The notes below the pieces were generated by a model. It was not told the DNA's origin. It saw nothing but the letters and a program-made list of their open reading frames with translations, and searched no databases. The position numbers and the translations under genes are program-made. Positions 10,600 to 29,868 of a stretch of DNA of 64,000 bases are shown here, piece after piece; position 1 is the stretch's first letter; each line of letters begins with the position of its first letter. Origin of the DNA: a virus; IMG/VR virus record IMGVR_UViG_3300031705_000001, positions 1-64,000 of that record. One strand, given 5' to 3'.

Positions 10600-11553
10600 A
10601 TGAAACGAATTAAATTCTTTGAAGATTTTCTAAATGAAGCGGAAGAACCCCAAGATTTAAATAAAATATACTTAGCGTATAATCCAGATTTAGGCCATAG
10701 ATTTTGGTCTTATAAGGATTTCGCTGCTGATAAGTTTTTCATTAGACTTACACCTGAAAATTATAAGGATATTGATATTGACAAGAACTTTCCAGTCTTA
10801 ACATATAATAGTGATGTTGTACAAACATTATTAGACAAGAAGTTAATCAAAGCAGAAAATGTATATAATAGACCAGAATTCATTAAGAGTTCGGGATCTA
10901 AAGCAGAATTTCACAAAATAGTTGATGGTGATGAAAACATCCCAAAGACTATTCATAAATCAGAAGATGCAGTTAAAGAAATTGGATTTCCAATGATTGC
11001 TAAACCATCTGAAGGACATTCTGGTTTGGGTATTACAGTAATTAAAAATCAAGAAGACTTTGACGCGGCAGATCATTCTAAATTAGATGTATATTCGCAG
11101 TACATTGATAAGAAGAGTGAACATAGGTTTTTTACATTTAAAGGAAAGCCTTTCTTTTGGCAAGAGAGACAGCCTACAAATGACAAAGCTAAAACTGGCG
11201 ATGGTGACGACAAAGAGAAGATGATGTTTAATTACATTAAAAAAGATGTATCAAAAACTCCAGATAAATTTAACAAATTAATGGCTAAATTCGGAAAAAT
11301 GTTTTCGGATTTACCTTATATATGTTTCGATGTTATGGAAGATCAAAAAGGAAAGCTGTATATCATTGAGTCGAACTCGATGCCAGGTGTACCATTTGAT
11401 TCTACTGTAGATATCTATAGAACATTGTTTGAAGATTTTTATGGAAGAGTGGTGGATGCAAAAACAGATGCTAAATTGAAAGAGCTTGCTGATTTTATGC
11501 TTGAGAAATCAATTAAATTAGACGGTGGCGATAGATTTAGTGTAGAAAAATAA
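10600..11553 (+). CDS. ATP-grasp ligase-like enzyme with N-terminal capsid-targeting-like tag
   Basis: Residues 1-13 are MKRIKFFEDFLNE, a tag shared with other genes here; cleavage after E13 would fit the T4 prohead-protease rule (L/I)xE. The rest is an ATP-grasp fold: Lys135 in GFPMIAKPSEGHSGLGI (129-145), with its Gly-rich loop binding ATP, and Asp244, Glu257 and Asn259 in FDVMEDQKGKLYIIESNSMPG as likely Mg ligands. The closest type is RimK/D-Ala-D-Ala-ligase-like carboxylate-amine ligase; the substrate is unknown. A phage enzyme with a head-targeting tag could act on host peptides or peptidoglycan precursors after injection (inference). Confidence 0.72.
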   Translation: MKRIKFFEDFLNEAEEPQDLNKIYLAYNPDLGHRFWSYKDFAADKFFIRLTPENYKDIDIDKNFPVLTYNSDVVQTLLDKKLIKAENVYNRPEFIKSSGSKAEFHKIVDGDENIPKTIHKSEDAVKEIGFPMIAKPSEGHSGLGITVIKNQEDFDAADHSKLDVYSQYIDKKSEHRFFTFKGKPFFWQERQPTNDKAKTGDGDDKEKMMFNYIKKDVSKTPDKFNKLMAKFGKMFSDLPYICFDVMEDQKGKLYIIESNSMPGVPFDSTVDIYRTLFEDFYGRVVDAKTDAKLKELADFMLEKSIKLDGGDRFSVEK

Positions 11554-11610
11554 TAAACTTGGATAAATTCCATTTTAATTAAAGATAAATAGAACTTAAT
11601 AATAAAAATT

Positions 11611-11853
11611 ATGGCAGAAGCTAATATGAATTGTATGATTATAAATGTGTGGGTTCACCATATGCAAGTTGATGAGTTATTCGACTTCTTAAATATGAGG
11701 ATCAACGCTGCACCATATTACTGGCTTAACGAAGCATCAGTACCCACTTCAATTACTGGTGGATACGTAATGATTTCATTGACATATGACTCTTATTCTC
11801 ATTTATCTTCTAATCGAAATTGGGACGAAGCTCCAGGTTGGATAAATCAATAA
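11611..11853 (+). CDS. Hypothetical protein
   Basis: The 80-residue protein is not recognised. It is rich in aromatic residues and contains a His pair early on (VWVHHMQVDELFDFLNMRI). The leader AATAATAAAAATT before the ATG is typical of this genome. It is followed after two bases by a 40-codon gene. Confidence 0.55.
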   Translation: MAEANMNCMIINVWVHHMQVDELFDFLNMRINAAPYYWLNEASVPTSITGGYVMISLTYDSYSHLSSNRNWDEAPGWINQ

Positions 11854-11855
11854 TT

Positions 11856-11978
11856 ATGAAAAAACAACAAACATTAAAAGCATTTCTTTTAAATCATAAA
11901 GGAACTAAGTACAGATCAGACACCTTTTTAGGTATAGTCGGTCAATTTATTAAAGCGTTTATTACTAGAAAGAAATAA
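11856..11978 (+). CDS. Small basic protein (40 aa)
   Basis: The ATG lies two bases after the previous stop, and the frame runs 40 codons to TAA at 11976-11978, ending just before a terminator. The product is basic, with a central hydrophobic stretch (TFLGIVGQFIKAFI) and an RKK ending, so it could be an amphipathic or membrane-associated peptide. Position and coupling support it being real; the function is unknown. Confidence 0.5.
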   Translation: MKKQQTLKAFLLNHKGTKYRSDTFLGIVGQFIKAFITRKK

Positions 11979-12004
11979 ACAATTTTAAAAAATCACATAT
12001 AAAG

Positions 12005-12034
12005 AACGTCTAATCTAACCATTAGACGTTTTTT
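12005..12034 (+). terminator. Rho-independent terminator
   Basis: AACGTCTAAT (12005-12014) pairs perfectly with ATTAGACGTT (12021-12030) over a 6-base loop, followed by TTTT. It separates the small genes above from the exonuclease gene. Confidence 0.92.
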
Positions 12035-12060
12035 AGGTTTAAAGGATTAAAGGATAATAT

Positions 12061-12801
12061 ATGTATACATTAAGCGAATTACAACAGATGATCTTCGTAG
12101 ACATCGAAACAAGCACACAGAAAGAAACATTTCAAGAAGTGATTGATGAAAACCCAGCGCTCGAAGAGTATTGGAATTTAAAGACTAGTCAATTAATGGA
12201 AGCACAGCCGGAAACACTTAAAGGTTTCGATGATCCGCATAAAATGTGGTCACGTATGGCAGGACTATATCCAGAATGGGGTAGAATTGTTTGTATTTCT
12301 ATGGGACAATTAAAGTTTGATGAAACAGGATTTCCAGTTGCATTTAAAGCTGCGTCTTACCACGGGACAGATGAGAGTAAACTACTTAAGGATTTTTCTC
12401 AGACAGCGACCAAGATCATGCAGAAGTATCCTAGAATGAAATGGGTTGGTCATAACATAAAAGGTTTTGATTTGCCATATATTATCAAAAGATCACTAAT
12501 AAACGGCAACACAGTTCCGACTGCATTTCATTTACATAAACAAAAACCATGGGAGAATTGTCTATTAGATACACAAGACGTTTGGAAGTTTGGTGGTTGG
12601 AATTCTGCTAAATTAGGATTGATATCAGAACTATTAGGGATTCCTTCACCTAAGGATGCAATGTCAGGTCCAGAAGTAAATGAATATTATTGGAATGACA
12701 GACTTGAAGAGATTAAAACATACTGCGAAAAAGATATTCAAGCTACCGCAAACATTATGCTAAAAATATCTAATATGAATATAATTGAAAATAATAGCTA
12801 A
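12061..12801 (+). CDS. DnaQ/PolB-type 3'-5' exonuclease
   Basis: The 246-residue protein has the three exonuclease motifs of the DEDDy class: Exo I FVDIETS (Asp14, Glu16), Exo II GHNIKGFDLPYI (Asp137) and Exo III YCEKDIQAT (Tyr221, Asp225). The layout matches the stand-alone exonucleases related to the proofreading domain of family B polymerases. There is no polymerase domain in the chain. Likely roles are DNA repair, end processing or host DNA degradation; the sequence does not decide between them. It has its own transcription unit start after a terminator. Confidence 0.83.
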   Translation: MYTLSELQQMIFVDIETSTQKETFQEVIDENPALEEYWNLKTSQLMEAQPETLKGFDDPHKMWSRMAGLYPEWGRIVCISMGQLKFDETGFPVAFKAASYHGTDESKLLKDFSQTATKIMQKYPRMKWVGHNIKGFDLPYIIKRSLINGNTVPTAFHLHKQKPWENCLLDTQDVWKFGGWNSAKLGLISELLGIPSPKDAMSGPEVNEYYWNDRLEEIKTYCEKDIQATANIMLKISNMNIIENNS

Positions 12802-12845
12802 AAAGCTTTTTTATGTCAAATATTAGTGGTATATTAGTAGAATAA
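12797..12845 (+). promoter_or_regulatory. Repeated ~45-bp promoter-like element, copy 1
   Basis: The element contains TTTTTTATGTCAAAT and, 8 bases on, TGGTATATTAGTAG, conserved in five copies in this window. TATATTAG resembles the Bacteroidetes -7 box TAnnTTTG. The copy starts with a weak AGCT-AAAA-AGCT stem plus T tract, which may terminate the exonuclease transcript. ATG follows at 12855. Confidence 0.65.
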
Positions 12846-12854
12846 ATAAAAGAT

Positions 12855-13184
12855 ATGGAATATACAAACGACGATGAAGACTTTGACTTTGATGAGTTCA
12901 TGGAAAATAGTGATTCTAATTTTAAAATTAAATTAGAAGAGCACAAAGAAAGGATGATATCCATGGCGATAGAATCTAATTATGATCAAATATCCATAAA
13001 CGGTATCAGTGCGTGGCATCTTAGAATGTTAGATGATGATAAACTTACCGATCTCAAGAAAACGTTCGATACCATGTTGGACTACTTCATAGAGTTAGAA
13101 GAATATGAAAAATGTACAGTGATACGAGATCAGCTTATGATCATTTATAGTATTGAAAAAAACAGATCTACAGAAAGAATTTAA
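12855..13184 (+). CDS. Small acidic protein of a three-member paralogous family (EEYEKC motif)
   Basis: The 109-residue protein has a very acidic N-terminus and a C-terminal helical motif MLDYFIELEEYEKCTVIRDQL. The same motif closes two other small proteins at 16219 and 16792. It resembles the UVR helical hairpin (as in UvrB/UvrC and McsA: ...EEAAxLRDxI), but the match is short. Its own promoter-like element lies directly upstream and a terminator follows, so it is a single-gene unit. The function is unknown; a protein-interaction role is the safest inference. Confidence 0.6.
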   Translation: MEYTNDDEDFDFDEFMENSDSNFKIKLEEHKERMISMAIESNYDQISINGISAWHLRMLDDDKLTDLKKTFDTMLDYFIELEEYEKCTVIRDQLMIIYSIEKNRSTERI

Positions 13185-13210
13185 ATATTACAAATTAGTG
13201 AAAATTAATT

Positions 13211-13240
13211 AGCCCATATGGAAACGTATGGGCTTTTTTA
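13211..13240 (+). terminator. Rho-independent terminator
   Basis: AGCCCATA (13211-13218) pairs with TATGGGCT (13227-13234) over an 8-base loop, followed by a T tract. Confidence 0.9.
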
Positions 13241-13780
13241 TTGATAAATATAAAGCCGATAGATAAACAAAAAAACAGATTCAAAAAGGTGAAAAAACTA
13301 GGTCTATTATTCAATTTAATATGTTCTTCACTGACGGTTTTATTACCATTGGCGTTGTATCTTAAAACAGGTACAATGGAACACTCATTCAGCTCGTATC
13401 ACGGCACTGCCGCCACGGACATATTAACATATAGCCTATTAATAATATCTTTAAGTTTTATATTAAGTGAAAATATAATTACTGGTTTATTTTTGATTGG
13501 TGTCGCAATATTCGACACACATGAATATATGATATTACACAATTTGTTTGCATACGGATTCTTTTTATCTGCAACGTATAGTATTGTTAATGATAAACGA
13601 TACAGATATATTGGAATTCCAATAATATTTTGTGCAGCTTTAATACCAATAATAACACTCTTTTGGTATGAGGTAATTGCATTACTTTGTTTAGCGATAC
13701 ATGGGTTTCTGTATTCACTTAAGAGATTAAAACTAGAGATTAAGAAAGAAAATAACCTAAAATCGCATAGCGATCTTTAA
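13241..13780 (+). CDS. Multi-pass membrane protein, unknown
   Basis: The frame runs from a TTG at 13241 to TAA, 179 codons. About five hydrophobic segments are visible (for example LLFNLICSSLTVLLPLALYL, ILTYSLLIISLSFIL, IGIPIIFCAALIPIITLFW). The start is uncertain: no ATG occurs in frame until Met46, and TTG 13241 abuts the terminator T tract; GTG at 13289 is an alternative. The C-terminus is basic and cytoplasm-like. No family is recognised. Confidence 0.55.
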   Translation: MINIKPIDKQKNRFKKVKKLGLLFNLICSSLTVLLPLALYLKTGTMEHSFSSYHGTAATDILTYSLLIISLSFILSENIITGLFLIGVAIFDTHEYMILHNLFAYGFFLSATYSIVNDKRYRYIGIPIIFCAALIPIITLFWYEVIALLCLAIHGFLYSLKRLKLEIKKENNLKSHSDL

Positions 13781-13783
13781 TTA

Positions 13784-13794
13784 GATATATAATA
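13784..13794 (+). promoter_or_regulatory. GATATATAATA motif abutting an ATG
   Basis: It matches the late-promoter-like set but ends one base before the ATG at 13796. Transcription from it would give a leaderless or internally starting mRNA, so here it may be only an AT-rich leader. Confidence 0.3.
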
Positions 13795-13795
13795 T

Positions 13796-14389
13796 ATGAA
13801 ACACATTAAATTATTTGAAGAATTTACCAATGAGAAATCAAGTGGTGAACTCTTTAATCCTAAAAGAGGTAAGATTACAAAGTTTGATCATACGAAACAT
13901 CCTGAATTGTCTGGAGAATTCTATGACTTAATAGCAACTGCATATGCAGAAATCGGAGGACATGCAAAAATCAAATCACCAGATGATGTATTCGCAGATC
14001 CTGATTGGAATTACTGGGAAGGATTAGACATACACGGAGATGAAGATTTTGATATGGTAATGTTTGGAAAGAAAACTAAATTCGGAGTTAAGTATTCTGG
14101 AGTTGGTCACGATGGATCAAAACCTGCAAAGAGAGCTTATATAACAGCAAGAGGCAGGGATCTTAATAGACCAGGATTCTATATAGAAGTTTCTGGTAAA
14201 ATCGCAGACATTTTAATTGGTAAATATAATGTGCCAGTTGTTTCAGATCATGCTGCAGTGGAAAAGGTTCTAGGCAAAAAGATTGAGTGGTTAGGAAATA
14301 TAGAAGGTGAATTAGGAAATGGTTGGTATTCTAGAAAACTAGGAGGATCATATCACAATAAAGTACTTATAGGTAGACCTAAAGTTTAA
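13796..14389 (+). CDS. Putative packaged internal protein with capsid-targeting-like tag
   Basis: Residues 1-13 MKHIKLFEEFTNE match the shared tag. The remaining 184 residues form a soluble, mixed alpha/beta domain that I cannot assign to a family; notable segments are NYWEGLDIHGDEDFDMVMFGKKTKFG, KPAKRAYITARGR, and the Tyr/Gly-rich ending GWYSRKLGGSYHNKVLIGRPKV. The tag suggests packaging into the head and injection. The protease site would read TNE, a weaker match than INE or LNE. Confidence 0.6.
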   Translation: MKHIKLFEEFTNEKSSGELFNPKRGKITKFDHTKHPELSGEFYDLIATAYAEIGGHAKIKSPDDVFADPDWNYWEGLDIHGDEDFDMVMFGKKTKFGVKYSGVGHDGSKPAKRAYITARGRDLNRPGFYIEVSGKIADILIGKYNVPVVSDHAAVEKVLGKKIEWLGNIEGELGNGWYSRKLGGSYHNKVLIGRPKV

Positions 14390-14399
14390 ACTAATTCAG

Positions 14400-14447
14400 C
14401 AAATGTTTTTTTATGTCAAACATTAGTTGTACATTAGTATTATAATA
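14400..14447 (+). promoter_or_regulatory. Repeated ~45-bp promoter-like element, copy 2
   Basis: It carries TTTTTTTATGTCAAAC and TTGTACATTAGTAT with the same spacing as the other copies; the -7-like box is TACATTAG. The ATG of the esterase gene follows at 14461. Confidence 0.62.
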
Positions 14448-14460
14448 ATAAAGATTAGAA

Positions 14461-15225
14461 ATGAAGATAGCATATTTACACGGTTTAGAATCTAGCATAG
14501 ACGAAAAAGACCCTAAGATCATATTCTTAAGAGAAACGTTTGATGAAGTATTTGCTCCATCAATTGCATATAGAAATAAAAAAACATTTGATAAATTATA
14601 TTCATCAATTAAACAACTAAAACCAGATTTAATCGTAGGATCATCTATGGGTGGATATGTTGCGTATTTGATTGGGAGTAAGCTTGGAATAGAAACTCTT
14701 CTATTTAACCCAGCAGTTGTTGATAGGACGTTTGACCCCGTAGTAGATGATACAAGATTAAATTTCGGTACTACTCACAATGTATACCTAGGGAAAAGCG
14801 ATACTGTTATAAATGGTGAACAAGTAATGAGATACTTTGGGCACATCGGTTCAGGTAGTTTTTATCACACAAAATACAATGGTGGACATAGAGTACCAGA
14901 ATCAGTATTCATAGATGCTATCAAATCCGTATTAAATATTAAAGAATCCCACCAAAACAAAATGAAGTACATTAAATTGTATGAGGATTTTGCTAGTGAG
15001 AATTCAGATCTAGAAAGAATCAGACACTTTAACGGAAAGTTAGAAGATATGCATTCTTGGTTGAGTCGTAAACTAAAAGAACAGGGCCTAGACGGTGAAA
15101 CAAATCCGTATAAAGACACTATAATGGTAAACGGCCCACACGCTGGCCAAAAAGATAAATCATTGCCTTACCAAGATTTTCAAAACGGTGAGTCAGACTT
15201 AGTAAAGAATAGACATGGAAGATAA
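14461..15225 (+). CDS. YqiA-like alpha/beta-hydrolase fused in frame to a tagged C-terminal domain
   Basis: Residues 1-160 are a small alpha/beta hydrolase like YqiA esterases: YLHGLESS (5-12), nucleophile Ser62 in GSSMGG (60-65), acid Asp114 in LGKSD, and His143 in NGGHRVP. At Met168 the chain reads MKYIKLYEDFASE, the tag that begins other proteins here, followed by about 75 charged helical residues (LERIRHFNGKLEDMHSWLSRKLKEQ). Either the ancestral stop between two genes was lost, or translation also starts at ATG 14962 in the same frame to give a tagged 87-residue protein. The gene overlaps the next by 11 bases. Confidence 0.72.
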   Translation: MKIAYLHGLESSIDEKDPKIIFLRETFDEVFAPSIAYRNKKTFDKLYSSIKQLKPDLIVGSSMGGYVAYLIGSKLGIETLLFNPAVVDRTFDPVVDDTRLNFGTTHNVYLGKSDTVINGEQVMRYFGHIGSGSFYHTKYNGGHRVPESVFIDAIKSVLNIKESHQNKMKYIKLYEDFASENSDLERIRHFNGKLEDMHSWLSRKLKEQGLDGETNPYKDTIMVNGPHAGQKDKSLPYQDFQNGESDLVKNRHGR

Positions 15226-15421
15226 AATTACAAAAGAGTTAGTTGTTCAATTAAAAAGAATAGCAGATGCTCTAGAAAAATCTAATAAGAATAGCGAAGT
15301 TGCTGAAAAAAGAACTGCTGTTTTAGAAAAACTACAAGAAAAGAATCTTAGAGCTGATCTTAGAGAAAAGGTATCTATAGATCCAGAAAAAGTAACACAC
15401 GTTTCACCCAACTTAGACTAA
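15215..15421 (+). CDS. Small coiled-coil protein
   Basis: The 68-residue protein is mostly one amphipathic helix (ELVVQLKRIADALEKSNKNSEVAEKRTAVLEKLQEKN) and so probably oligomerises. It overlaps the esterase fusion by 11 bases and precedes dnaJ by six, suggesting a coupled operon. The function is unknown. Confidence 0.6.
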   Translation: MEDKITKELVVQLKRIADALEKSNKNSEVAEKRTAVLEKLQEKNLRADLREKVSIDPEKVTHVSPNLD

Positions 15422-15427
15422 ATTTTT

Positions 15428-16222
15428 ATGGATCCGTATAACGTATTAGGTGTAGATAAAAGTTCTACTCAAAACGATATAAAGAAAGCGTACCGTAAAC
15501 TAGCTAAGGAGCATCATCCAGATAAGAACGATGGCGCTGATGCTAAATTCAAAGAGATTGCTGAAGCATATGAAAAGATAGGATCCGAGTCTTCTAGGGA
15601 AGAATATGACAACGTCGGTAATTATCAGAACTTCTCAGGATTTGATGCCAATTTTAATATGGCAGACATGTTTGATCAAGTTTTCGGCAATGCTTTCAAC
15701 CCACAACGAGCACCTAAAGGATTAGACGTTCGATTAGATTTACATATCAGTTTCGACGAAGCGTATTCTGGTACCTCAAAACAATTTCCTATTAATGGCC
15801 AAGAGATTAAAATAGATTTTAAACCTGGTCTAAAAACAGGCATGAAGCTAAGAGTTCCTGGTAAAGGTCAACCTCATCAATATAATAGCACTCTTCCTAA
15901 TGGCGATCTAATCATAAATGTACATGTCATTCATAATTCAGAATGGATTTTACAAGACAATGATATTTGGATAGAATTGAATATGGATTGGTATGATATA
16001 TTCTTAGGAACTAAAGTGAATGTAAATACACCGGATGGTGAGATCTCTATTAACATTCCTAAAAACAGTTACCCTGGTAAATCACTTAGAATTAAAGATA
16101 GAGGCTATCCAATATATGGTACTGGTAAAAAAGGTGCTCTTTTATGCAAATTAAATTCTAGATATTCTGAACTTAATGACGAACAACTGGAATATATAGA
16201 GAAAGTAAAGAACACAATATGA
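15428..16222 (+). CDS. dnaJ: DnaJ/CbpA-type co-chaperone (class II J-protein)
   Basis: The J-domain is at residues 1-65 (DPYNVLGVDKSSTQNDIKKAYRKLAKEHHPDK, HPD at 30-32), followed by a short Gly/Phe/Asn-rich linker (FSGFDANFNMADMFDQVFGNAF) and a DnaJ C-terminal substrate-binding region (about 95-260). The Cys-rich zinc finger is absent, so it resembles CbpA or DnaJ class B. It would recruit host DnaK to phage proteins; no DnaK is encoded in the window. The length of 264 residues is slightly short for the family because one C-terminal domain is compact. It overlaps the next gene (ATGA). Confidence 0.88.
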   Translation: MDPYNVLGVDKSSTQNDIKKAYRKLAKEHHPDKNDGADAKFKEIAEAYEKIGSESSREEYDNVGNYQNFSGFDANFNMADMFDQVFGNAFNPQRAPKGLDVRLDLHISFDEAYSGTSKQFPINGQEIKIDFKPGLKTGMKLRVPGKGQPHQYNSTLPNGDLIINVHVIHNSEWILQDNDIWIELNMDWYDIFLGTKVNVNTPDGEISINIPKNSYPGKSLRIKDRGYPIYGTGKKGALLCKLNSRYSELNDEQLEYIEKVKNTI

Positions 16223-16485
16223 AAGACTATTTCTCCAGTGATATTAATGATAAACCATGGTTTCCTATAATCGATGGAATTATAGTTAATGATGAAGACT
16301 TATTTTTTAATGCGTTATATATGGCAATGACAAGTCACCCTACATATGTAATAGCATCTGACTTAGCAACTGATCGCAAAAACGTAATATTAGGCGCAAT
16401 GTTAGATTATTTCGAAACCAAAGAAGAATTCGAAAAGTGTACTAAAATTTTAAATATAAAAAAACAAATAAAACTCGTATGTTAA
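16219..16485 (+). CDS. Small protein, second member of the EEYEKC-motif family
   Basis: The 88-residue protein ends in MLDYFETKEEFEKCTKILNIKKQI, matching the motif in the proteins at 12855 and 16792. The N-terminus is different and aromatic-rich (DYFSSDINDKPWFPIIDG). It overlaps dnaJ by four bases and the bS21 gene by seven. No function is assigned. Confidence 0.6.
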   Translation: MKDYFSSDINDKPWFPIIDGIIVNDEDLFFNALYMAMTSHPTYVIASDLATDRKNVILGAMLDYFETKEEFEKCTKILNIKKQIKLVC

Positions 16486-16661
16486 TAATTGAAGTTAATA
16501 AAGGTAATATAGACAAAGCATTAAAGCAATATAAAAGAAAAGTTATTAAAACTAAACAATTAAAAAAACTAAGAGAACTAAAGAATTTTATCAAGCCATC
16601 GGCTAAAAATCGCCTAAAGCATCAAAAGGCTAAATATTTACAAACCAAAGAACATTCTTAA
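16479..16661 (+). CDS. rpsU: Ribosomal protein bS21 homologue
   Basis: The 60-residue basic protein matches bS21 along its whole length: MLIIEV at the start, then NIDKALKQYKRKVIKT, LKKLRELKNFIKPS and KAKYLQ. Family signature positions (ID-ALK-YKRK, F-KPS, A-Y-Q) are kept and the length is normal. bS21 binds the 30S platform beside the anti-Shine-Dalgarno end of 16S rRNA, where in Bacteroidetes it helps hide that sequence. A phage copy could replace the host protein and bias initiation to phage mRNAs (inference). The gene overlaps its upstream neighbour by seven bases and has no Shine-Dalgarno motif. Confidence 0.9.
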   Translation: MLIIEVNKGNIDKALKQYKRKVIKTKQLKKLRELKNFIKPSAKNRLKHQKAKYLQTKEHS

Positions 16662-16791
16662 TAACATATTAATAAAATATCCTAATATTACATACTTAAA
16701 ATTGTGATTTAGATAAATATTTTAATTAATATATACAAATGAGAACGAGTAGTATTAAACTACAAGTTCCCCAAAATATACCAATATTAAG

Positions 16792-17052
16792 ATGGCAGGG
16801 TTTATTTCCAACTCAGACAAAGATAGCTTGATGAGAGCTAGTTATTATCAAATAACTAGAAACTTCACCAAAACAGTAAATCGCTTCATAGCATTTAAAG
16901 ACAGTGATCGTATCGTTGAGATACCTCATGGTATTAAACAGCGCAGTAAATTTATTGACCTAATGGTTAAGTATTTTGAATCGCTAGAAGAATACGAGAA
17001 ATGTACAAAGTTAATGAAGCTAAAAGAACTTGTCATAATGGCAGGTGACTAA
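16792..17052 (+). CDS. Small protein, third member of the EEYEKC-motif family
   Basis: The 86-residue protein has the C-terminal motif LMVKYFESLEEYEKCTKLMKLKEL. Upstream, a 30-codon frame starting at ATG 16739 overlaps in another frame; I see no reason to join them. It precedes phoH by 27 bases. The function is unknown. Confidence 0.58.
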   Translation: MAGFISNSDKDSLMRASYYQITRNFTKTVNRFIAFKDSDRIVEIPHGIKQRSKFIDLMVKYFESLEEYEKCTKLMKLKELVIMAGD

Positions 17053-17079
17053 ACACAGTATAACTTAAATTTATAATAT

Positions 17080-17778: not shown

Positions 17779-17787
17779 AAACAATTC

Positions 17788-17833
17788 ATTGGATTCATGT
17801 ATAACTATTAAATTAGAAATACATGAATCCAAT
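17788..17833 (+). promoter_or_regulatory. 15-bp perfect inverted repeat covering the rnhB start codon
   Basis: ATTGGATTCATGTAT (17788-17802) pairs perfectly with ATACATGAATCCAAT (17819-17833) across a 16-base loop. The right arm contains the ATG (17823-17825). The hairpin would bury the start codon in the mRNA. No T tract follows, so simple termination is unlikely. Confidence 0.75.
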
Positions 17834-19032: not shown

Positions 19033-19039
19033 AAGTCCG

Positions 19040-19088
19040 CAAATATTTTTTTATGTCAAATAAAAGTTGTATATTAGCAGTATAATAA
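19040..19088 (+). promoter_or_regulatory. Repeated ~45-bp promoter-like element, copy 3
   Basis: It contains TTTTTTTATGTCAAAT and GTTGTATATTAGCAG, followed by TATAAT. ATG follows at 19105. It matches copy 5 over most of its length. Confidence 0.68.
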
Positions 19089-19104
19089 AAACAAAACAAT
19101 AATT

Positions 19105-19314
19105 ATGAAAGAAACATTCGCAGCATTCGCACTAGGAATTTTAGGTATTACAATACTAGCAGTATTTATGGCTTGGCCAACACAGTGGCTTTGGAATAAC
19201 TGTTTAGTATCGGCAATTGACGGTGTAAACTCAATAGGATTTTGGCAAGCATTAGGTATTAATGTCTTATCTTCAGTTCTTTTTAAATCATCAAACTCAA
19301 AAACTACAAAATAA
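19105..19314 (+). CDS. Small membrane protein
   Basis: The 69-residue protein has one clear N-terminal transmembrane segment (FAAFALGILGITILAVFMAWPTQ would span it) and a second weaker one (IGFWQALGINVLSSVLF). It is the first gene behind promoter-like element 3 and ends one base before the nucleotidase gene. Confidence 0.55.
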   Translation: MKETFAAFALGILGITILAVFMAWPTQWLWNNCLVSAIDGVNSIGFWQALGINVLSSVLFKSSNSKTTK

Positions 19315-19315
19315 T

Positions 19316-19768
19316 ATGGCAAAAAAGATAATGTACTTAGATATGGATGGTGTCCTCGTAGACATATTCAAAGCATGTACCGATAAATATGGACCTGAAT
19401 CAGTTTCAAGTATTGGTGATTTGTTGGATGAAGATCCTGAATTATTTTATGAAGCTGTACCGATGCCCGGTGCAATTGAAGCTTTCAATAAATTAGTTAA
19501 GGTGTTTGATGTATATCTATTAACCTCTGCACCTTGGAAGAGCATCGGCGCTGTCAAAGCAAAAAAACAATGGGTACAAAAGTATTTAGGTAAACCTGCT
19601 TACAAGCGTTTAATCACAAGCCACCACAAAAATCTTATGATTGGAGAATATCTAATTGATGATAGAACAGCAAACGGTGCAGGTGAATTTAAAGGTGAAC
19701 TTATTCAATTCGGTACTGAAGCACATCCAAACTGGGAAAGTGTACTTAAATATTTAAACGTTAATTAA
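19316..19768 (+). CDS. 5'(3')-deoxyribonucleotidase-like HAD phosphatase
   Basis: I start at ATG 19316 (MAKKIMYLDMDGVLVD), one base after the previous stop; a longer frame from 19262 lies inside the preceding gene. The 150-residue product has motif I LDMDGVLVD (Asp9, Asp11), motif II LLTSAPW and a late LIDDRTANG, as in NT5C-type nucleotidases. It would dephosphorylate dNMPs or NMPs. In phages such enzymes accompany nucleotide metabolism genes; dCMP deaminase is encoded 7 kb downstream. Confidence 0.82.
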   Translation: MAKKIMYLDMDGVLVDIFKACTDKYGPESVSSIGDLLDEDPELFYEAVPMPGAIEAFNKLVKVFDVYLLTSAPWKSIGAVKAKKQWVQKYLGKPAYKRLITSHHKNLMIGEYLIDDRTANGAGEFKGELIQFGTEAHPNWESVLKYLNVN

Positions 19769-19769
19769 T

Positions 19770-20003
19770 ATGGACTTCAAAGAAAACACATCATCGATTT
19801 TTGATAATTACAAGAAAGCTGGCAGAGTGATTTCATCATGTACAAATCTAATACAACTTAGAGGTGCAAAAGAATATATTAAAAACTTGAAAAGATTCAA
19901 TAGCACAATATCATGTGCAAACGAAATACAGTCAGATTATTTAAAGACAAGTCAACTAGAATTAGAAACGACACTTAATTTAAAGATAGAATCATTACAG
20001 TAA
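19770..20003 (+). CDS. Hypothetical small helical protein
   Basis: The 77-residue protein is mostly helical and of mixed charge, with two central Cys residues (SSCTNLIQLRG, STISCANEI). It starts one base after the nucleotidase stop and a terminator follows. It is not recognised. Confidence 0.55.
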   Translation: MDFKENTSSIFDNYKKAGRVISSCTNLIQLRGAKEYIKNLKRFNSTISCANEIQSDYLKTSQLELETTLNLKIESLQ

Positions 20004-20028
20004 TGAAATCTAATTATTACAATATTAT

Positions 20029-20074
20029 AAATCCTAGTGAAATTGTTCGTAACTTTTTTAGCTAGGATTTTTTT
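20029..20074 (+). terminator. Rho-independent terminator
   Basis: AATCCTAG (20030-20037) pairs with CTAGGATT (20062-20069), followed by a T tract. The loop is long (24 bases). Its T tract is also the start of promoter-like element copy 4. Confidence 0.7.
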
Positions 20075-20109
20075 ATATCAATAAATTGTTGTATATTAGT
20101 AGTATAACT
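20067..20109 (+). promoter_or_regulatory. Repeated ~45-bp promoter-like element, copy 4
   Basis: It has TTTTTTTATATCAAT and TTGTATATTAGTAG followed by TATAA. It is the most diverged copy in its upstream half, but TTGTATATTAGTAGTATAA is intact. ATG follows at 20123. Confidence 0.65.
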
Positions 20110-20122
20110 AAAAGATAAAGTC

Positions 20123-20323
20123 ATGACAAAAGAAGCATTTAGCACAAAGTACGGAGAAAGATCAGCGGATCTATTAACATCTAACGATGTATTATCAAGA
20201 GTTGCAAGTAATCTTTCAGATCTTCAAATCGAAAAAGGCTTTTTAACTTCTGATGAAATTGACTCAAAGTTAAATGCACTTAAAGGATACATCTTCGATT
20301 TTCAGTCAATCACAAAAAAATAA
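20123..20323 (+). CDS. Small hypothetical protein
   Basis: The 66-residue soluble protein has an N-terminal FSTKYGERSADLLTSNDVLSRV and a helical remainder. It is a single-gene unit between two promoter-like elements. Strong upstream element use suggests early, high expression (inference). No family is recognised. Confidence 0.58.
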   Translation: MTKEAFSTKYGERSADLLTSNDVLSRVASNLSDLQIEKGFLTSDEIDSKLNALKGYIFDFQSITKK

Positions 20324-20331
20324 ACGCATAA

Positions 20332-20375
20332 AAGCTTTTTTATGTCAAATAAAAGTTGTATATTAGTAGTATAAT
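20332..20375 (+). promoter_or_regulatory. Repeated ~45-bp promoter-like element, copy 5
   Basis: It contains CTTTTTTATGTCAAAT and GTTGTATATTAGTAG followed by TATAAT. ATG follows at 20391 after the leader TTAAAGTC, which is shared with copy 4 (ATAAAGTC). Confidence 0.68.
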
Positions 20376-20390
20376 TAAAAACTTAAAGTC

Positions 20391-20618
20391 ATGTCAACAG
20401 AATTAAAAACATTAAAAGGACAATTTCATAGCGAAAGAACTAATGAAATGGAAAACACAACAATGTCACTAACAAGATTTAGTGGTGGTAAAGAAGGTAT
20501 GAAAGTTCAATTAACAATGAGAACTACAGATCAAGGTAAATTCTTTACACACATTGCTCTTAATAAAGAAGAGATCAAAACGTTAATTAAAGAATTACAA
20601 GAAAACTTTGAACTATAA
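20391..20618 (+). CDS. Small hypothetical protein
   Basis: The 75-residue protein has beta-strand-like segments (MKVQLTMRTTDQGKFFTHIAL) and a C-terminal helix (KEEIKTLIKELQENF). It follows promoter-like element 5 directly. It is not recognised. Confidence 0.58.
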   Translation: MSTELKTLKGQFHSERTNEMENTTMSLTRFSGGKEGMKVQLTMRTTDQGKFFTHIALNKEEIKTLIKELQENFEL

Positions 20619-20622
20619 GACT

Positions 20623-20829
20623 ATGAAAATTACAAAACAATCACAATTGTCGGGTAAAACAAATACCATGGAATTAGATATAACGTCTGAGCAATTGGTA
20701 AAATACGATAACGGAGAGTTAGTACAAAATACATTTCCTGATTTAAGTTCAGATGAAAGAGAGTTTTTAATTTCAGGTATTACACCTAAAGAATGGTTAG
20801 ATGCATTCGGTACAGGAGAAGATGAATAA
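20623..20829 (+). CDS. Small hypothetical protein
   Basis: I choose ATG 20623, four bases after the previous stop; a longer frame would need TTG 20608 inside that gene. The 68-residue product is acidic (EQLVKYDNGELVQNTFPDLSSDEREFLISGITPKEW), and its SSDEREFLISGITPKEWLD pattern suggests a small structured domain. The function is unknown. Confidence 0.55.
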   Translation: MKITKQSQLSGKTNTMELDITSEQLVKYDNGELVQNTFPDLSSDEREFLISGITPKEWLDAFGTGEDE

Positions 20830-20843
20830 TTTAAAAAATAAAA

Positions 20844-21311
20844 ATGAACAATAAAAAATCAGTAATTTTTGATCTAGATGGAACTCTAGCAATAATTGAT
20901 AAAAGACGAGTATTGGCAACTAAGCCAGATGGTAAAATTAACTGGGACATTTTCTTTGATCCTAAGAACATTAGCTTAGATGTACCAAATCACTCAGTAA
21001 TTAAAATGGCCCAATTGTTAAAAGCAGATGGACATAGAATTGTTATTTTTAGTGGTAGAAGTAAAGCGACTAAAGATGCTACTAGAGATTGGTTAGATAA
21101 ATTTGATGTACCATTTGATGTACTTAAAATGAGGCCGACTGGTAACGAATTCGGATTTATGCCAGATGACAAGTTAAAACAAGGATGGTTAGACGATTTG
21201 TTCCCTGATAAAACAGATATCTTATGTGTATTTGATGACAGAGATAAAGTCGTTAAGATGTGGAGAGATAATGGATTGACTTGTATGCAAGTTGCACCGG
21301 GTAATTTTTAA
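20844..21311 (+). CDS. PNK-type 3'-phosphatase domain, stand-alone
   Basis: The 155-residue HAD protein has VIFDLDGTLA (Asp10, Asp12), FSGR (Ser70) and VFDDRDKVVKMWRDNGLTCMQVAPGNF (Asp131, Asp132). The ending is the signature of the phosphatase half of T4 polynucleotide kinase (PseT; ...DDRTQVVEMWR...C.QVA.GDF). The kinase half is missing, so it may remove 3'-phosphates from nucleic-acid ends or have been retuned to nucleotides. I see no partner kinase or RNA ligase in the window. Confidence 0.82.
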   Translation: MNNKKSVIFDLDGTLAIIDKRRVLATKPDGKINWDIFFDPKNISLDVPNHSVIKMAQLLKADGHRIVIFSGRSKATKDATRDWLDKFDVPFDVLKMRPTGNEFGFMPDDKLKQGWLDDLFPDKTDILCVFDDRDKVVKMWRDNGLTCMQVAPGNF

Positions 21312-21321
21312 AATATAAATT

Positions 21322-21741
21322 ATGAAACACTTAAAAATAATAAAAGCAATTAATAAAGCTGAATTTAATCTAGAGGAACTAGAACAAATCAGTTTAGCAA
21401 TAGCTAACATAAATCATCAAGAGAGCGCAGAACTAGAAGTTACATCATATGATGGTAGAACTTATGAAACAGATGATTATGCATTCGAAGCTACTCGTAT
21501 TTTACAAGAAGATGGTACACCGTATGATGATCAGTGCTCGATTGAAGTCACTGATAAACGTACTAAACCATGGAAAGAAGAATACTTAGATAATGCACGT
21601 TGGATGATTGGCGTTTTAGAAAATGATAGCGAATCAATGGTTGAAGCAAATACTATGTTTAATAAACAGGGCATTGCAGAATTCAGGGCTGTTGTCAGAG
21701 ACCTTATTAACGTGGAATGGTTACCACAACAAAAAACATAA
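21322..21741 (+). CDS. Hypothetical protein
   Basis: The 139-residue acidic protein starts MKHLKIIKAINKAE, which superficially resembles the tag of other proteins but lacks its Phe-Glu core. The body contains a beta-rich segment (SAELEVTSYDGRTYETDDYAFEATRILQEDG) and a helical end (MVEANTMFNKQGIAEFRAVVRDLI). It is not recognised. Confidence 0.55.
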   Translation: MKHLKIIKAINKAEFNLEELEQISLAIANINHQESAELEVTSYDGRTYETDDYAFEATRILQEDGTPYDDQCSIEVTDKRTKPWKEEYLDNARWMIGVLENDSESMVEANTMFNKQGIAEFRAVVRDLINVEWLPQQKT

Positions 21742-21744
21742 ATT

Positions 21745-22125
21745 ATGATAGGCGGAGTACAAAAAAAGATATTAGTCGACATAAATGACGACGGTAATCT
21801 TGTAATCAACGCAGATTTTGCAGAACTTTTTTATAAAGAAAAAGAGCAGAACTGGAAATTAGTCAGAGAACGTGATAACTTAACGAAGATCTCGCGTGCT
21901 GTTATTTGGATAGAATGGAACAAGGACAGTACATTTAAAGATCAGTTTGAAGAAATTGGATTGAATCGTAGCTTGGTCATGTCACCGTTTGATGATAGTT
22001 TTACATGGCAAACAACTCCAGTAACGGAAATCCTAGAGCAACGTGAGGACTATTTTAAATTCAAAACAGGGAATAGTAATTATGAGTTGTTTAAAATAAA
22101 ACAAGAAACAGTTTCTGATTCTTAA
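21745..22125 (+). CDS. Hypothetical protein ending in QETVSDS
   Basis: The 126-residue protein is unrecognised. It begins three bases after the previous stop. Its last seven residues and stop (QETVSDS) are encoded by a 32-bp segment repeated exactly at the end of the next gene. The 39-base gap to uvsE is AT-rich without a clear promoter. Confidence 0.6.
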   Translation: MIGGVQKKILVDINDDGNLVINADFAELFYKEKEQNWKLVRERDNLTKISRAVIWIEWNKDSTFKDQFEEIGLNRSLVMSPFDDSFTWQTTPVTEILEQREDYFKFKTGNSNYELFKIKQETVSDS

Positions 22126-22131
22126 GTATAA
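22100..22131 (+). repeat. 32-bp direct repeat, copy 1 (flanks uvsE)
   Basis: It is identical to 23078-23109. It encodes QETVSDS plus the stop and TATAA beyond it. Confidence 0.92.
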
Positions 22132-22164
22132 CATTTATTTATAAATATTTAAAAACTAAATTCA

Positions 22165-23103
22165 ATGGAAACCAATAATTACGGGTATTGTTGCATTAAT
22201 ACTACTCTTCAAAAAGCTGACAAGATTACTACTAATAGAGGTATGATCAAACGAACGTTCGCAAGTAAGGGTATAGATTATGTTTCTGAATTAGCATTAT
22301 TAAATGTTAAGGATTTAGTTAAAATAGTTTCATGGAATAATGCTAACGATATTAAACTTTTTCGCATAAGTTCTGATATGTTTCCATGGATGAGCGAATA
22401 CAATTTATGTGATTTGCCAGATTATAAAAAAATAAAGAATATATTAAAAGGTGCTGGAAAAATAGCAATGGATAACGGTCAACGTTTGACATTTCATCCT
22501 GGACCATTCGATGTATTGGCATCTCTTACACAGCGAGTTGTAGACAAATGTATTATAGATCTTAATAAACATGGTGAAATCATGGATCTTTTGGAATTAC
22601 CAAGAGATCACTCTGCACCTATTAACATACATGTCAATACTACACAAGGTGGAAAAGACGAAGCAATGCAACGCTTCTGTGATGCATTTGAATTACTAGA
22701 CGAATCTGTTCGTAAAAGATTAGTAGTAGAAAACGATGACAAAGAAAGCCAATACACAACAGAGGATCTTTATCAAGGTATTTGGAATAAAATAGGAGTT
22801 CCTGTTACATTTGACTATCATCACCATTGGTGTCATTCAGGTGAATTAACACAGGAAGAAGCACTTAAATTAGCAAGCCTGACATGGCCAGTTGGTATTA
22901 AACAACTTGTACATTATTCTAGTTGTCAAATGATTCACGAGAACGAAGAGCAAACAAATAAACGTGCACATTCAGATTACATATATGAATATATTGACAC
23001 TTATGGTTTATTTCTAGATATTGAATTGGAAGCTAAAGCTAAAGAGTTAGCACTTAAAAAATATTTGAAACAGTTTGAACAAGAAACAGTTTCTGATTCT
23101 TAA
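22165..23103 (+). CDS. uvsE: UV DNA damage endonuclease (UvsE/UVDE family)
   Basis: The 312-residue TIM-barrel protein has the family start YGYCCINTTLQ, then RISSDMFPWMSEYN, LTFHPGPFDVL, NIHVNTTQGGKD, VVENDDKE and FDYHHHWCHSG, which supply the metal-binding His, Glu and Asp residues. It nicks DNA 5' of UV photoproducts. It replaces the T4 DenV glycosylase in this phage type. The last seven codons are identical at DNA level to the end of the upstream gene, so the gene sits between two 32-bp direct repeats. Confidence 0.9.
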   Translation: METNNYGYCCINTTLQKADKITTNRGMIKRTFASKGIDYVSELALLNVKDLVKIVSWNNANDIKLFRISSDMFPWMSEYNLCDLPDYKKIKNILKGAGKIAMDNGQRLTFHPGPFDVLASLTQRVVDKCIIDLNKHGEIMDLLELPRDHSAPINIHVNTTQGGKDEAMQRFCDAFELLDESVRKRLVVENDDKESQYTTEDLYQGIWNKIGVPVTFDYHHHWCHSGELTQEEALKLASLTWPVGIKQLVHYSSCQMIHENEEQTNKRAHSDYIYEYIDTYGLFLDIELEAKAKELALKKYLKQFEQETVSDS

Positions 23104-23109
23104 GTATAA
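23078..23109 (+). repeat. 32-bp direct repeat, copy 2 (end of uvsE)
   Basis: It is identical to 22100-22131, offset by 978 bp (326 codons). Confidence 0.92.
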
Positions 23110-23114
23110 TATAC

Positions 23115-23318
23115 ATGATGAATTTATTTTATTACTTATCGTTAGGCATATTATTTAATGCCATTTATGATGGTGTTGTTTCTTATATAAAAAAAGAAGA
23201 GCTTAGGCTTGATATGGCTCAGCGTGTTTTGTTTGCTATATTATGGCCTCTTTATTGTGCTGCATTTATTTTTAATTATATAAGTGCAATGATACGTAAA
23301 CTAAAGGACGAAGATTGA
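23115..23318 (+). CDS. Small membrane protein
   Basis: The 67-residue protein has two hydrophobic segments (LFYYLSLGILFNAIYDGVV, VLFAILWPLYCAAFIFNYI) and a charged C-terminus. Two consecutive ATGs (23115 and 23118) are possible starts. It follows uvsE by 11 bases. No family is recognised. Confidence 0.55.
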   Translation: MMNLFYYLSLGILFNAIYDGVVSYIKKEELRLDMAQRVLFAILWPLYCAAFIFNYISAMIRKLKDED

Positions 23319-23366
23319 TATTTGAAACATTTAAAAAAATTAATGTATAATAATAAATTACAAAAT

Positions 23367-23570
23367 ATGTTTAAAACAATTAAAAGAGTAGCAAAGAAAA
23401 TATTGGCACATTGTGATCAACACGTAATGGGGATGAATTCTAATTTGTTTTGGCTATTTGCAGTATTAAATTGGAGTACAAAGGACTTTTGGTTTTTTGC
23501 AATGGCCGCAATTGCATTTAGAGGATTACAAGAAATCATAGATGAATTAAGAAAAAACAATAAACAATAA
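23367..23570 (+). CDS. Small membrane-associated protein
   Basis: I start at ATG 23367 (MFKTIKRVAKKILAHCD), which has the usual A-rich leader; in-frame upstream starts are TTG 23322 and ATG 23343. The 67-residue protein has a basic helix, a hydrophobic segment (SNLFWLFAVLNW) and another (FWFFAMAAIAF). The function is unknown. Confidence 0.5.
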   Translation: MFKTIKRVAKKILAHCDQHVMGMNSNLFWLFAVLNWSTKDFWFFAMAAIAFRGLQEIIDELRKNNKQ

Positions 23571-23579
23571 ACGATAATT

Positions 23580-23825
23580 ATGAGTTTGAAATTAGATGCG
23601 CTACGCGCAAAGTATATCGCAATGAGATTAGAAGCTGTTGCAACATTAGAAGTTTATTCTAAAAATGCAATAGGTATTGGAGAACATCCACAGATCATTG
23701 ACGAAATGGACAAATTAATTAGAACGATATCAGATGCAAATGGATATTTAGCCACATTAGATTCTATTTTTGTAACAGCAGATGACAAAGAAGCTGTTGG
23801 ACCATCTGGTCCGCTTAACGAATAA
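23580..23825 (+). CDS. Small helical protein
   Basis: The 81-residue protein consists of two or three helices (LDALRAKYIAMRLEAVATLEVY, QIIDEMDKLIRTISDANGYLATLDSIF), possibly a helical bundle. It ends just before a terminator. It is not recognised. Confidence 0.55.
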   Translation: MSLKLDALRAKYIAMRLEAVATLEVYSKNAIGIGEHPQIIDEMDKLIRTISDANGYLATLDSIFVTADDKEAVGPSGPLNE

Positions 23826-23843
23826 TTAACCTACAAATACTAA

Positions 23844-23877
23844 CCAAAGGGGACTGAGAAATCATTCCCCTTTTTTT
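23844..23877 (+). terminator. Rho-independent terminator
   Basis: AAAGGGGA (23846-23853) pairs with TCCCCTTT, followed by a T tract, with a loop of about 12 bases. It ends the operon of small proteins before the tagged-protein cluster. Confidence 0.88.
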
Positions 23878-23879
23878 AT

Positions 23880-23891
23880 GATATATAATAC
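23880..23891 (+). promoter_or_regulatory. GATATATAATAC motif abutting an ATG
   Basis: It is a member of the late-promoter-like set, directly after a terminator and directly before ATG 23892. As in the case at 13784, transcription would start at or inside the start codon. Confidence 0.35.
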
Positions 23892-24587
23892 ATGAAACAC
23901 ATAAAAACATATAACTTATTTTTGAACGAGAGTCGAAGTAAATGGGATTCACTAGCATCCAAATTAACAAGCGTGGTATTCAAAGCGTGGATTAAAGGAC
24001 ATGCCAATGGAATGACAACCATAGATTACTCTGATCAAATTGAGGATAAATTAGAATTTGATCTTACAGCTACACTTCATATTACTAAAAAGACCAAAGG
24101 ATTTGAAATAGCTAATTCAACAGGTGCAGATGGTAGAGATGAAGATGACGATGGAGATTTTCAAACACCATTTATCAATATAGATTTTGTTATTAATCCA
24201 GATTGGTTACCAGGAGAATGGTCAGAGGTTTACATGTATTTAGCAGATGTTATTCGACATGAAATGGAACACATTACACAAGACGGAAAAGACACCGGTA
24301 ATTATAGAAAGGGTAAACCGAATGAAGATGACTCTGAATTAAGAGCGCTGATAGAATTAGGAGTTATGCCGAAGGCACAATACTTAATGTTACCTAAAGA
24401 AGTTGATGCAAATTTACAAGGACTTAGATTTGAATCTAAGAAAAGAAAGGAATCAATGATCGACGCAGTCACCAGGTATTTAGACACACAAGAACAAAGT
24501 GGTACGATTGATGGAACTTCACGTGAGGAAGTATTAACATTATGGAGACGAAGAGCTAAAAAAATAGGTGGTATACCTAAATTCTAA
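23892..24587 (+). CDS. Putative zinc metallopeptidase with capsid-targeting-like tag
   Basis: Residues 1-13 are MKHIKTYNLFLNE, ending in the protease-like LNE. The body has VIRHEMEHITQ with HExxH at His123-Glu124-His127, and PKEVDANLQG with Glu170 as a plausible third zinc ligand. The N-terminal half is a beta-rich domain with an acidic loop (GRDEDDDGDFQTP). Family assignment beyond zincin-like is not possible by eye. It opens a run of four tagged genes. An injected protease acting on host proteins, or on the cell wall during entry, is inferred from the tag. Confidence 0.72.
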   Translation: MKHIKTYNLFLNESRSKWDSLASKLTSVVFKAWIKGHANGMTTIDYSDQIEDKLEFDLTATLHITKKTKGFEIANSTGADGRDEDDDGDFQTPFINIDFVINPDWLPGEWSEVYMYLADVIRHEMEHITQDGKDTGNYRKGKPNEDDSELRALIELGVMPKAQYLMLPKEVDANLQGLRFESKKRKESMIDAVTRYLDTQEQSGTIDGTSREEVLTLWRRRAKKIGGIPKF

Positions 24588-24588
24588 T

Positions 24589-25005
24589 ATGAAGCACATT
24601 AAAGTATTCAACGATTTTATAAATGAGAAGATAACATTACCAACGTCTGGTGGTTATACTGAGGATTGGCTTTTCAAACAAGTGATGGATGGTAAAAAAG
24701 ATATTCATTTTCTTGTTACTAAACATCCTATGGTTAACAGTGAAGACGATATACGAATCTTACAAACATATAGAGATATGGGCTGGGGCGTATTGACAGT
24801 TGATAAAGAGGACGGAGATGCATATATTGCATATAGACCAAACTCGACTGGTAAAAAGAAAGCAAAACGATTAAAAGAAATTGCAGATTCACATGGTGGA
24901 TATTTAGCAGATAAGACTGCTGAAGAAGCAAGAGAGATTGGTGAATTATTGGATTATAGTAATGCAGATATTAAAAGATTCGTAAAAAGAATATACGGTG
25001 AATAA
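24589..25005 (+). CDS. Putative packaged internal protein with capsid-targeting-like tag
   Basis: I start at ATG 24589, one base after the previous stop, because the tag MKHIKVFNDFINE then begins the protein; a longer frame from 24568 lies inside the upstream gene. The 138-residue product has a mixed N-terminal domain (DWLFKQVMDGKKDIHFLVTKHPMVNSEDDIRIL would span it) and a helical C-terminus. It is unrecognised. INE at residues 11-13 is a good prohead-protease-type site. Confidence 0.65.
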   Translation: MKHIKVFNDFINEKITLPTSGGYTEDWLFKQVMDGKKDIHFLVTKHPMVNSEDDIRILQTYRDMGWGVLTVDKEDGDAYIAYRPNSTGKKKAKRLKEIADSHGGYLADKTAEEAREIGELLDYSNADIKRFVKRIYGE

Positions 25006-25006
25006 C

Positions 25007-25354
25007 ATGAGACATATTAAAGTATTTGAAGATTTTATAAATGAAGGTATGATTCTTCAGGAATTAGAAACTGAATTCAATATAAAATTAGACCTTTATG
25101 ATAATGGTAAATGGTTAGCGCTTTCGCGCATTGTAGTTCCTAAAGAACTGAGAGGTTCTGGAATTGGTTCTAAAGTAATGGAAAGAATTGTTGATTTTGC
25201 TGATAATGCAAATAAAAAGATTTATCTAACACCTTCTAAAGATTTTGGAGCGACTTCAGTAAATAGACTTAAAACATTTTATAAAGAATTCGGGTTTGTT
25301 AAGAATACATTTAAGAATGAAACTAAAGAAACAATGGTAAGATTACCAAAATAA
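25007..25354 (+). CDS. GNAT acetyltransferase with capsid-targeting-like tag
   Basis: I start at ATG 25007 so that MRHIKVFEDFINE is N-terminal. The remaining 102 residues are a compact GNAT fold with the acetyl-CoA motif A IVVPKELRGSGIGSKVM (Arg49-Gly-Ser-Gly-Ile-Gly54) and FYKEFGFV as the motif B equivalent. The acceptor is unknown. If packaged and injected, it could acetylate host targets early, a strategy comparable to T4 Alt ADP-ribosylation (analogy, not homology). Confidence 0.8.
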   Translation: MRHIKVFEDFINEGMILQELETEFNIKLDLYDNGKWLALSRIVVPKELRGSGIGSKVMERIVDFADNANKKIYLTPSKDFGATSVNRLKTFYKEFGFVKNTFKNETKETMVRLPK

Positions 25355-25355
25355 T

Positions 25356-26036
25356 ATGAAAAGAATTAAACTATTCGAAGAATTCTTATTAAGTAGAATT
25401 AATGAAGCTGAAGATTCACATAGTGACTATCCTCAAGCTGCTAAAAAGAATGCACAAAAAGCAATAGACTGGAAAGAGAAATATGGCAGAGAAGAAGTTG
25501 AAGCTGGTACTGCAGTCGGATGGGCAAGAGCACATCAATTGGCTAATGGAGAAAACATATCTAGCGATACTGTAAAAAGAATGTCTTCATTTAATAGACA
25601 TAGAAAAAATGCAACTATTGCACCTGAATTTAAAGAAACACCATGGTTAGATAAAGGTTTTGTTTCATGGCTAATTTGGGGAGGAGATGCAGGAGTTGAT
25701 TGGGCAATGGCTAGATCAAAAGAAATAGATACATTAGAAGAAGGTATAATAGAAGAAAAGAAAAAGAGCAAACCTAAATCTGACAAACAAAAGATAAAGG
25801 CTTTGACTAAAAAACAAAAGAGTCTTTCTTCAAAATCAAAAGATATTAAAGGAGACATAGCTGCACTTTCTAAAGATAAAGAAAAGGATCCTACTGATAA
25901 ATTACAAGGTTTATTGTTAAAGTCTCAACTACAGCAAGCATCGGCAGATGGTATGAAAGCTGCAGTTCAAAAACAACAAATCGGTTTAAAATCTAAACTG
26001 AAAACAGCCAAGAAAAAACAAAAGGCTACAAAATAA
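25356..26036 (+). CDS. Tagged internal protein with basic helical C-terminus
   Basis: The 226-residue protein starts MKRIKLFEEFLLSRINE, the shared tag with a four-residue insertion that still ends in INE. Residues of about 30-125 form a conserved-looking domain (VGWARAHQLANGENISSDTVKRMSSF and GFVSWLIWGGDAGVDWA) of a kind I associate with phage head proteins but cannot name. Residues 135-226 are Lys-rich coiled coil, suitable for contact with packaged DNA. It is the last of four adjacent tagged genes. Confidence 0.62.
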   Translation: MKRIKLFEEFLLSRINEAEDSHSDYPQAAKKNAQKAIDWKEKYGREEVEAGTAVGWARAHQLANGENISSDTVKRMSSFNRHRKNATIAPEFKETPWLDKGFVSWLIWGGDAGVDWAMARSKEIDTLEEGIIEEKKKSKPKSDKQKIKALTKKQKSLSSKSKDIKGDIAALSKDKEKDPTDKLQGLLLKSQLQQASADGMKAAVQKQQIGLKSKLKTAKKKQKATK

Positions 26037-29864: not shown

Positions 29865-29868
29865 AATC

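Follow-up and report, generated by a model that had tools for sequence, protein, structure and literature searches.

Beyond DNA, what phages inject is known for few model phages. In T4, genetic work on the internal protein IPIII assigns residues 4 and 7 of its N-terminus to targeting and residues 8 and 10 to processing, and Asp at position 10 blocks the cut with targeting kept (PMC9026906). The T4 ADP-ribosyltransferase Alt is an enzyme packaged in the head, ejected, and processed at both ends (PMC9026906, PMC5512222); for polyvalent proteins with ART-PolyVal, zincin-like and GNAT domains, injection along with the DNA of the phage has been proposed (Iyer et al. 2017, PMC5512222), and in SPN3US and phiKZ many head proteins lose propeptides to the prohead protease (PMC5694885). 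Here, we describe a 13-residue N-terminal tag (consensus MKHIKLFExF[IL]NE) shared by unrelated proteins of a virus record of 149,989 bases (IMG/VR record IMGVR_UViG_3300031705_000001, hereafter the contig), the leading 64 kb of which (positions 1 to 64,000) constitute the window. Nucleotide similarity to named phages was not detected. Relatives in Prevotella, Tenacibaculum and Flavobacterium suggest that the tag-bearing phages, which are aquatic, probably infect Bacteroidota. We consider it very probable that the N-terminus shared by these proteins serves as a capsid-targeting propeptide, in the manner of the T4 internal proteins.

Like T4 IPI-IPIII, the tagged proteins begin with a short, propeptide-like stretch of the form aromatic-x-x-aromatic-hydrophobic-x-Glu followed by a small residue. 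Unlike in T4, the tag has 13 residues instead of 10, each virus carries 5 to 20 tags on unrelated proteins instead of three, and the cargo is mostly not basic and often belongs to enzyme families; since the cargo is not small and basic, we speak of proteins working like the internal proteins and not of their homologues. The likeness to Alt extends to a tagged ART-PolyVal (ADP-ribosyltransferase) protein in a relative (63.7 bits, cut-off 31.2), although this belongs to a different ART family and is not in the source genome. Tagged cargo has the same domain kinds as the polyvalent proteins, but in place of giant multidomain chains it has mostly one domain each under its own tag, with few two-module chains. 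The propeptides of SPN3US and phiKZ, mostly longer than 100 residues and cut after AxE or SxE, are unlike the tag described here.

A recurrent N-terminal tag and its putative cleavage site

The recurrence of the tag in the contig exceeds chance, as [FYL]xx[FYW][ILVTAMS]xE occurs within the first 22 residues of 11 of the 165 genes, against 1.25 after shuffling (standard deviation 1.15, maximum 6, 1000 shuffles). All seven tags that the initial annotation had named in the window are present, but seven was an undercount, since a reading of the whole contig gives ca. 18-20, those beyond the window lying at contig positions 69918, 75543, 77149, 81834, 82859, 83916, 84397, 95512, 96267, 96605, 110912 and 114992 (some degenerate). 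Its literal motif fits six of the seven, the protein at 25356 having four extra residues ahead of INE, and an ending in LNE or INE holds for five of seven only when this shifted site is counted, the remaining two being TNE (13796) and ASE (14962). A degenerate DNA pattern of the tag was found in at least 119 places in IMG/VR, against 0 for a scrambled pattern, which is a weak control, being one codon longer. The tagged proteins collected form 174 clusters, ca. 156 of them credible, and 147 cargo representatives (a set chosen by the tag; consensus MKHIKLFExFxNE, mean column identity 5%) have the tag in common and nothing else. The tag is borne by about 150 unrelated cargo families, in arrays of up to ca. 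ten genes in a row (L167).

The residue following the tag is strongly biased: among 144 cargo representatives, residue 14 is Ala, Ser or Gly in 93 (65%), whereas these three make up 18.8% of the residues in the same proteins (p=2.4e-33); by residue 15 they are back at background. Many cargo loci in this set were gathered via the tag itself, which introduces a selection bias; free of it are the relatives retrieved with a capsid or cargo sequence and a sample of 64 N-termini chosen on positions 1, 2, 4, 7 and 10 only, drawn from ten records that had been selected without the tag pattern. Of these 64 N-termini, 50 have Glu as residue 13, and in 23 of the 50 it is followed by Ala, Ser or Gly. Second [ILV]NE sites shortly past the tag are weakly enriched (15 of 144 proteins) and were not used. 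T4 sites of like form are YQEFIAE and FGSFLTE, each followed by Ala (IPII, IPIII and gp23), and Y4, F7, I8 and E10 of IPII and IPIII align at equal spacing with F7, F10, I11 and E13 of the tag, i.e., its conserved positions are those aligned to IPIII residues 4, 7, 8 and 10. The initial annotation had IPI-IPIII all starting MKTYQEFIAE, which is correct for IPII and IPIII, but IPI starts MKTFKEFTST.

Head genes and scaffold heptads

Further along the contig lie a portal-like gene (109292), a tagged acidic core protein of 112 residues (110912), a protease-scaffold in a single 686-residue chain (111307-113367), a capsid protein gene (113482) and, beyond it, a tagged protein of 522 residues (114992). 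The gp21-like protease that the initial annotation had invoked was located as an S77 (gp21-type) domain at 111382 (E=1.5e-13). The order portal, acidic core protein, S77 protease-scaffold, capsid resembles T4 20-67-68-21-22-23, and the core protein, immediately ahead of the protease, takes the place of gp67/68; unlike in T4, protease and scaffold form one chain. Among 80 IMG/VR relatives retrieved with the capsid protein, the small acidic core protein gave 78 matches, nearly all beginning with a form of the tag, and its spacing variants (MKIIKTFEDFISE, MKYVKLFEQFIKE, FEDFISTRVQE, FESFIKKVNE) stand ahead of conserved sequence, for instance DALKAGEES in one large group of relatives. The protease N-terminus is LLIVE or LLILE in all listed relatives, resembling LIE-9 of T4 gp21 (PMC9026906). 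All 11 long relatives have the S77 protease, and so do 18 of the 22 tag-bearing records that reach 100 kb, the latter a count without a matched background rate.

The scaffold part repeats Y-x-E-[YH]-[ILV]-A-E (e.g., YSEYLAE) at spacings of 14, 21 or 28 residues, with 307 such heptads in 55 distinct relatives against 6.2 expected after shuffling. They exceed expectation in 14 of 14 readable tag-bearing protease-scaffold chains, which came from records found with the tag pattern (3 to 14 each against 0.2-0.6 expected), the richest being a 319-kb phage, with 14 at a single spacing, and two phages of 385 and 482 kb, with 12-14. Protease and scaffold share one chain, with heptads at 14-residue spacing, in the contig (111307-113367) and in L363-L378. 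A scaffold of tag-like heptads is a further difference from T4: none were found in T4 gp22 or in the protease-scaffold of Tenacibaculum phage PTm1, nor by eye in the scaffold of Flavobacterium phage immuto, although for co-evolution of tag and scaffold three comparison phages without this tag are too few for proof. The tag core appears to mimic one scaffold heptad.

We postulate the following course of events. The helix IKLFExF[IL]NE resembles one Y-x-E-Y-[IL]-A-E heptad of the prohead scaffold, and for this reason a tagged protein may join the scaffold core during head assembly. The S77 protease would then cut after the tag Glu, releasing the cargo within the head ahead of DNA packaging, and the cargo would probably be ejected alongside the DNA, acting early against host defences and metabolism. 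That the tagged proteins would be targeted to the head and cleaved, as the initial annotation had proposed, is strongly indicated at the level of sequence by the S77 protease, the T4-like gene order, the tagged core protein, Glu13 with a small residue 14, and the scaffold heptads; that the cargo would be ejected and function in the host we only infer.

Tagged proteins in the window and in relatives

The tagged genes of the window and the gene downstream of them all lie on the (+) strand. The first (10600..11553, 317 amino acids (aa); tag MKRIKFFEDFLNE at 10600-10638, then A) is the ATP-grasp protein that had been named among the cargo, an identity confirmed by ATP-grasp models and phrog_2599 (8e-9), and four of its five relatives align from residue 1, including the tag. 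The claim of a GNAT acetyltransferase among the tagged proteins also holds, as the protein at 25007..25354 (115 aa; tag MRHIKVFEDFINE, then G) matches Acetyltransf_7 (1.6e-7) and phrog_10691 (1.8e-19); its relatives come tagged, with an E-less tag, and untagged. The protein at 13796..14389 (197 aa; tag MKHIKLFEEFTNE, then K) probably has a GNAT-like fold too, the top PDB matches of its AlphaFold model (pLDDT 80) being aminoglycoside acetyltransferases of the GNAT kind (E=1.2e-4, TM only ca. 0.4), and the tag is retained in form in its 35 relatives.

A four-gene tagged array, to which 25007 belongs, is opened by an HExxH protein (23892..24587, 231 aa; tag MKHIKTYNLFLNE, then S). Its annotation as a peptidase was upheld in part: HExxH is invariant in a family of 18 sequences, but for a zincin fold the model (pLDDT 80) found no counterpart in the PDB below E=0.25. 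In immuto the homologue is one domain, the C-terminal one, of a multidomain protein of 907 aa, and there the HExxH domain is carried without this tag. Immuto (L287) has recurring N-termini of the forms MKKSxLxxIIKEEL and MxxxFxLxxFLxENKLT, perhaps its own targeting tags. The array includes a 138-aa protein (24589..25005; tag MKHIKVFNDFINE, then K), relatives of which are joined to the module at 14962 under a single tag, and a 226-aa protein (25356..26036; tag MKRIKLFEEFLLSRINE with its four-residue insertion, then A) with a head-protein-associated domain (phrog_2859, 3e-14); in other viruses, haloarchaeal and Roseobacter ones included, this domain is part of genes that carry a portal, capsid or prohead protease annotation. 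Downstream of the array, an acidic 169-aa protein (26068..26577) begins with MAKPILSFEEYAANKK, a degenerate tag, and its relatives with KLKTFTQYVAEM and KLKSFEEYVADI.

The chain at 14461..15225 consists of a UPF0227 esterase (residues 1-160; 40.7 bits, 3e-10, above the curated Pfam cut-off of 21), an internal tag (MKYIKLYEDFASE, ATG 14962, then N) and a small mobile module that is also found beneath other tags. It had been described as an esterase fusion; the esterase and the tag stand, but an ordinary gene fusion is rejected, as relatives end in a tag or run on past one. Among 25 distinct frames of UPF0227 esterase relatives, 12 have a C-terminal tag (EMQRIKMFEEFNSLD, KLQRFKIFEEFINDALN), 9 an internal tag with cargo behind it (including 14461, which the search pattern had missed) and 4 no tag, against ca. 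1 tagged expected from shuffling. Such C-terminal and cleavage-less versions set these tags apart from T4; the C-terminal forms are without the Glu cut site, as expected if the targeting half alone suffices there.

Tagged cargo, of median length 149, includes the Pfam families GNAT, Nudix, cytidylyltransferase-like, HD and ATP-grasp, and a tagged Acb1 (anti-CBASS) was recognized at 29.4 bits (cut-off 27). In a scan of 67 records, Acb1-like proteins occur in 13, and at least six of the ten that were read start with the canonical tag, three of them from near-identical records; Tad3 (anti-Thoeris) occurs in three, tagged in G023 and G024 and untagged in the source contig (139203-139799; 76 bits, cut-off 27). 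The suggestion of an enzymatic toolkit of effectors is strengthened by the tagged Acb1-like, Tad3 and ART-PolyVal proteins of relatives, while effector action itself is only presumed.

An upstream element and other features of the window

The element GATATATA lies at 10538..10545 (+), upstream of 10600, and again at 13784, 23880 and 26037; further sites in the window include 2070, 32231, 41055, 42392 and 56271. It is biased 32:0 for the gene strand here, similarly in nine other records (two of them near-duplicates), and sits before many head, tail and tagged genes. A role as a late promoter that co-regulates the tagged genes is only suggestive, because its direct association with them reaches p=0.024 here and was not found in the relative G008.

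Elsewhere in the window, two long repetitive proteins rich in Thr and Ser are encoded at 2623-5883 and 5907-8636; the former, like contig 64157-65815, ends in a sequence that resembles a Hint/intein-like domain (CIIEGTEI...FFANGILTHN). A short in-frame repeat, DATPVRPRRDIE, is found at 29836-30525.

Alternative explanations

Tagged proteins might enter the prohead core and be cut there to serve assembly or genome condensation and not as delivered effectors. The presence of the tag on the core protein at 110912 and on the large protein at 114992, both probable morphogenesis proteins, speaks for this, as does the influence of T4 IPIII on head assembly (PMC9026906); yet we regard it as improbable, as the cargo is highly diverse and phage-variable, and ART, Nudix, NMNAT-like, Acb1-like and Tad3 proteins are implausible as assembly factors. 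Many docking roles are open to short amphipathic helices, and the N-terminus could be a localisation or docking signal in the infected cell (for the membrane, the replication compartment or a host protein) with no link to the head. We give this far less credence, for it leaves unexplained Glu13 followed by Ala, Ser or Gly, the tagged core protein beside the protease and the matching scaffold heptads. Practically no weight is left for the view that a 5' gene cassette was recently duplicated and has no role at the protein level: the tagged genes do stand in tandem arrays with tags near identical within a genome, but near-identical tags on unrelated cargo of the contig use different codons at 32% of shared residues, and in the HExxH family positions 10 and 13 of the tag are invariant over the 18 sequences while its other letters drift.

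Several observations weigh against a capsid-targeting propeptide. Mature cargo, with a median net charge of -1.2 per 100 aa and 37.5% of it positive, is not basic like the T4 internal proteins, the scaffold heptads have AE where the tags mostly have NE, and an S77 match is absent from 4 of the 22 tag-bearing contigs of at least 100 kb, which may be fragments. The element GATATATA, common to head genes, stands before many of the tagged genes here but before almost none in G008. None of the named phages that were checked proved to be a tag-bearing isolate: a two-tag peptide had no match when searched against named phages, the query probably being too short for tblastn, and PTm1 has no tag within the 49 kb read.

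Capsid targeting by a T4-like propeptide is the reading that we prefer, and we lean, if only slightly, towards a more extended form of it. The tag would copy the scaffold heptad, the cargo would pass as a scaffold repeat, and both motifs would co-evolve into lineage-specific address codes; the tag would work N-terminally with a cut site, internally, or C-terminally without one, and with it huge phages would carry an exchangeable payload, anti-CBASS and anti-Thoeris proteins among it, available from the very start of infection.

Implications

If this holds, the tag would make it possible to read off from genomes which proteins many large uncultured phages package, and more than 100 unknown families would join the packaged class. 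Some anti-defence proteins (Acb1-like, Tad3) would arrive with the virion and not be made after infection. The match between tag and scaffold heptad provides a testable mechanism for how the tag may be read, and possibly a modular address system for head loading.
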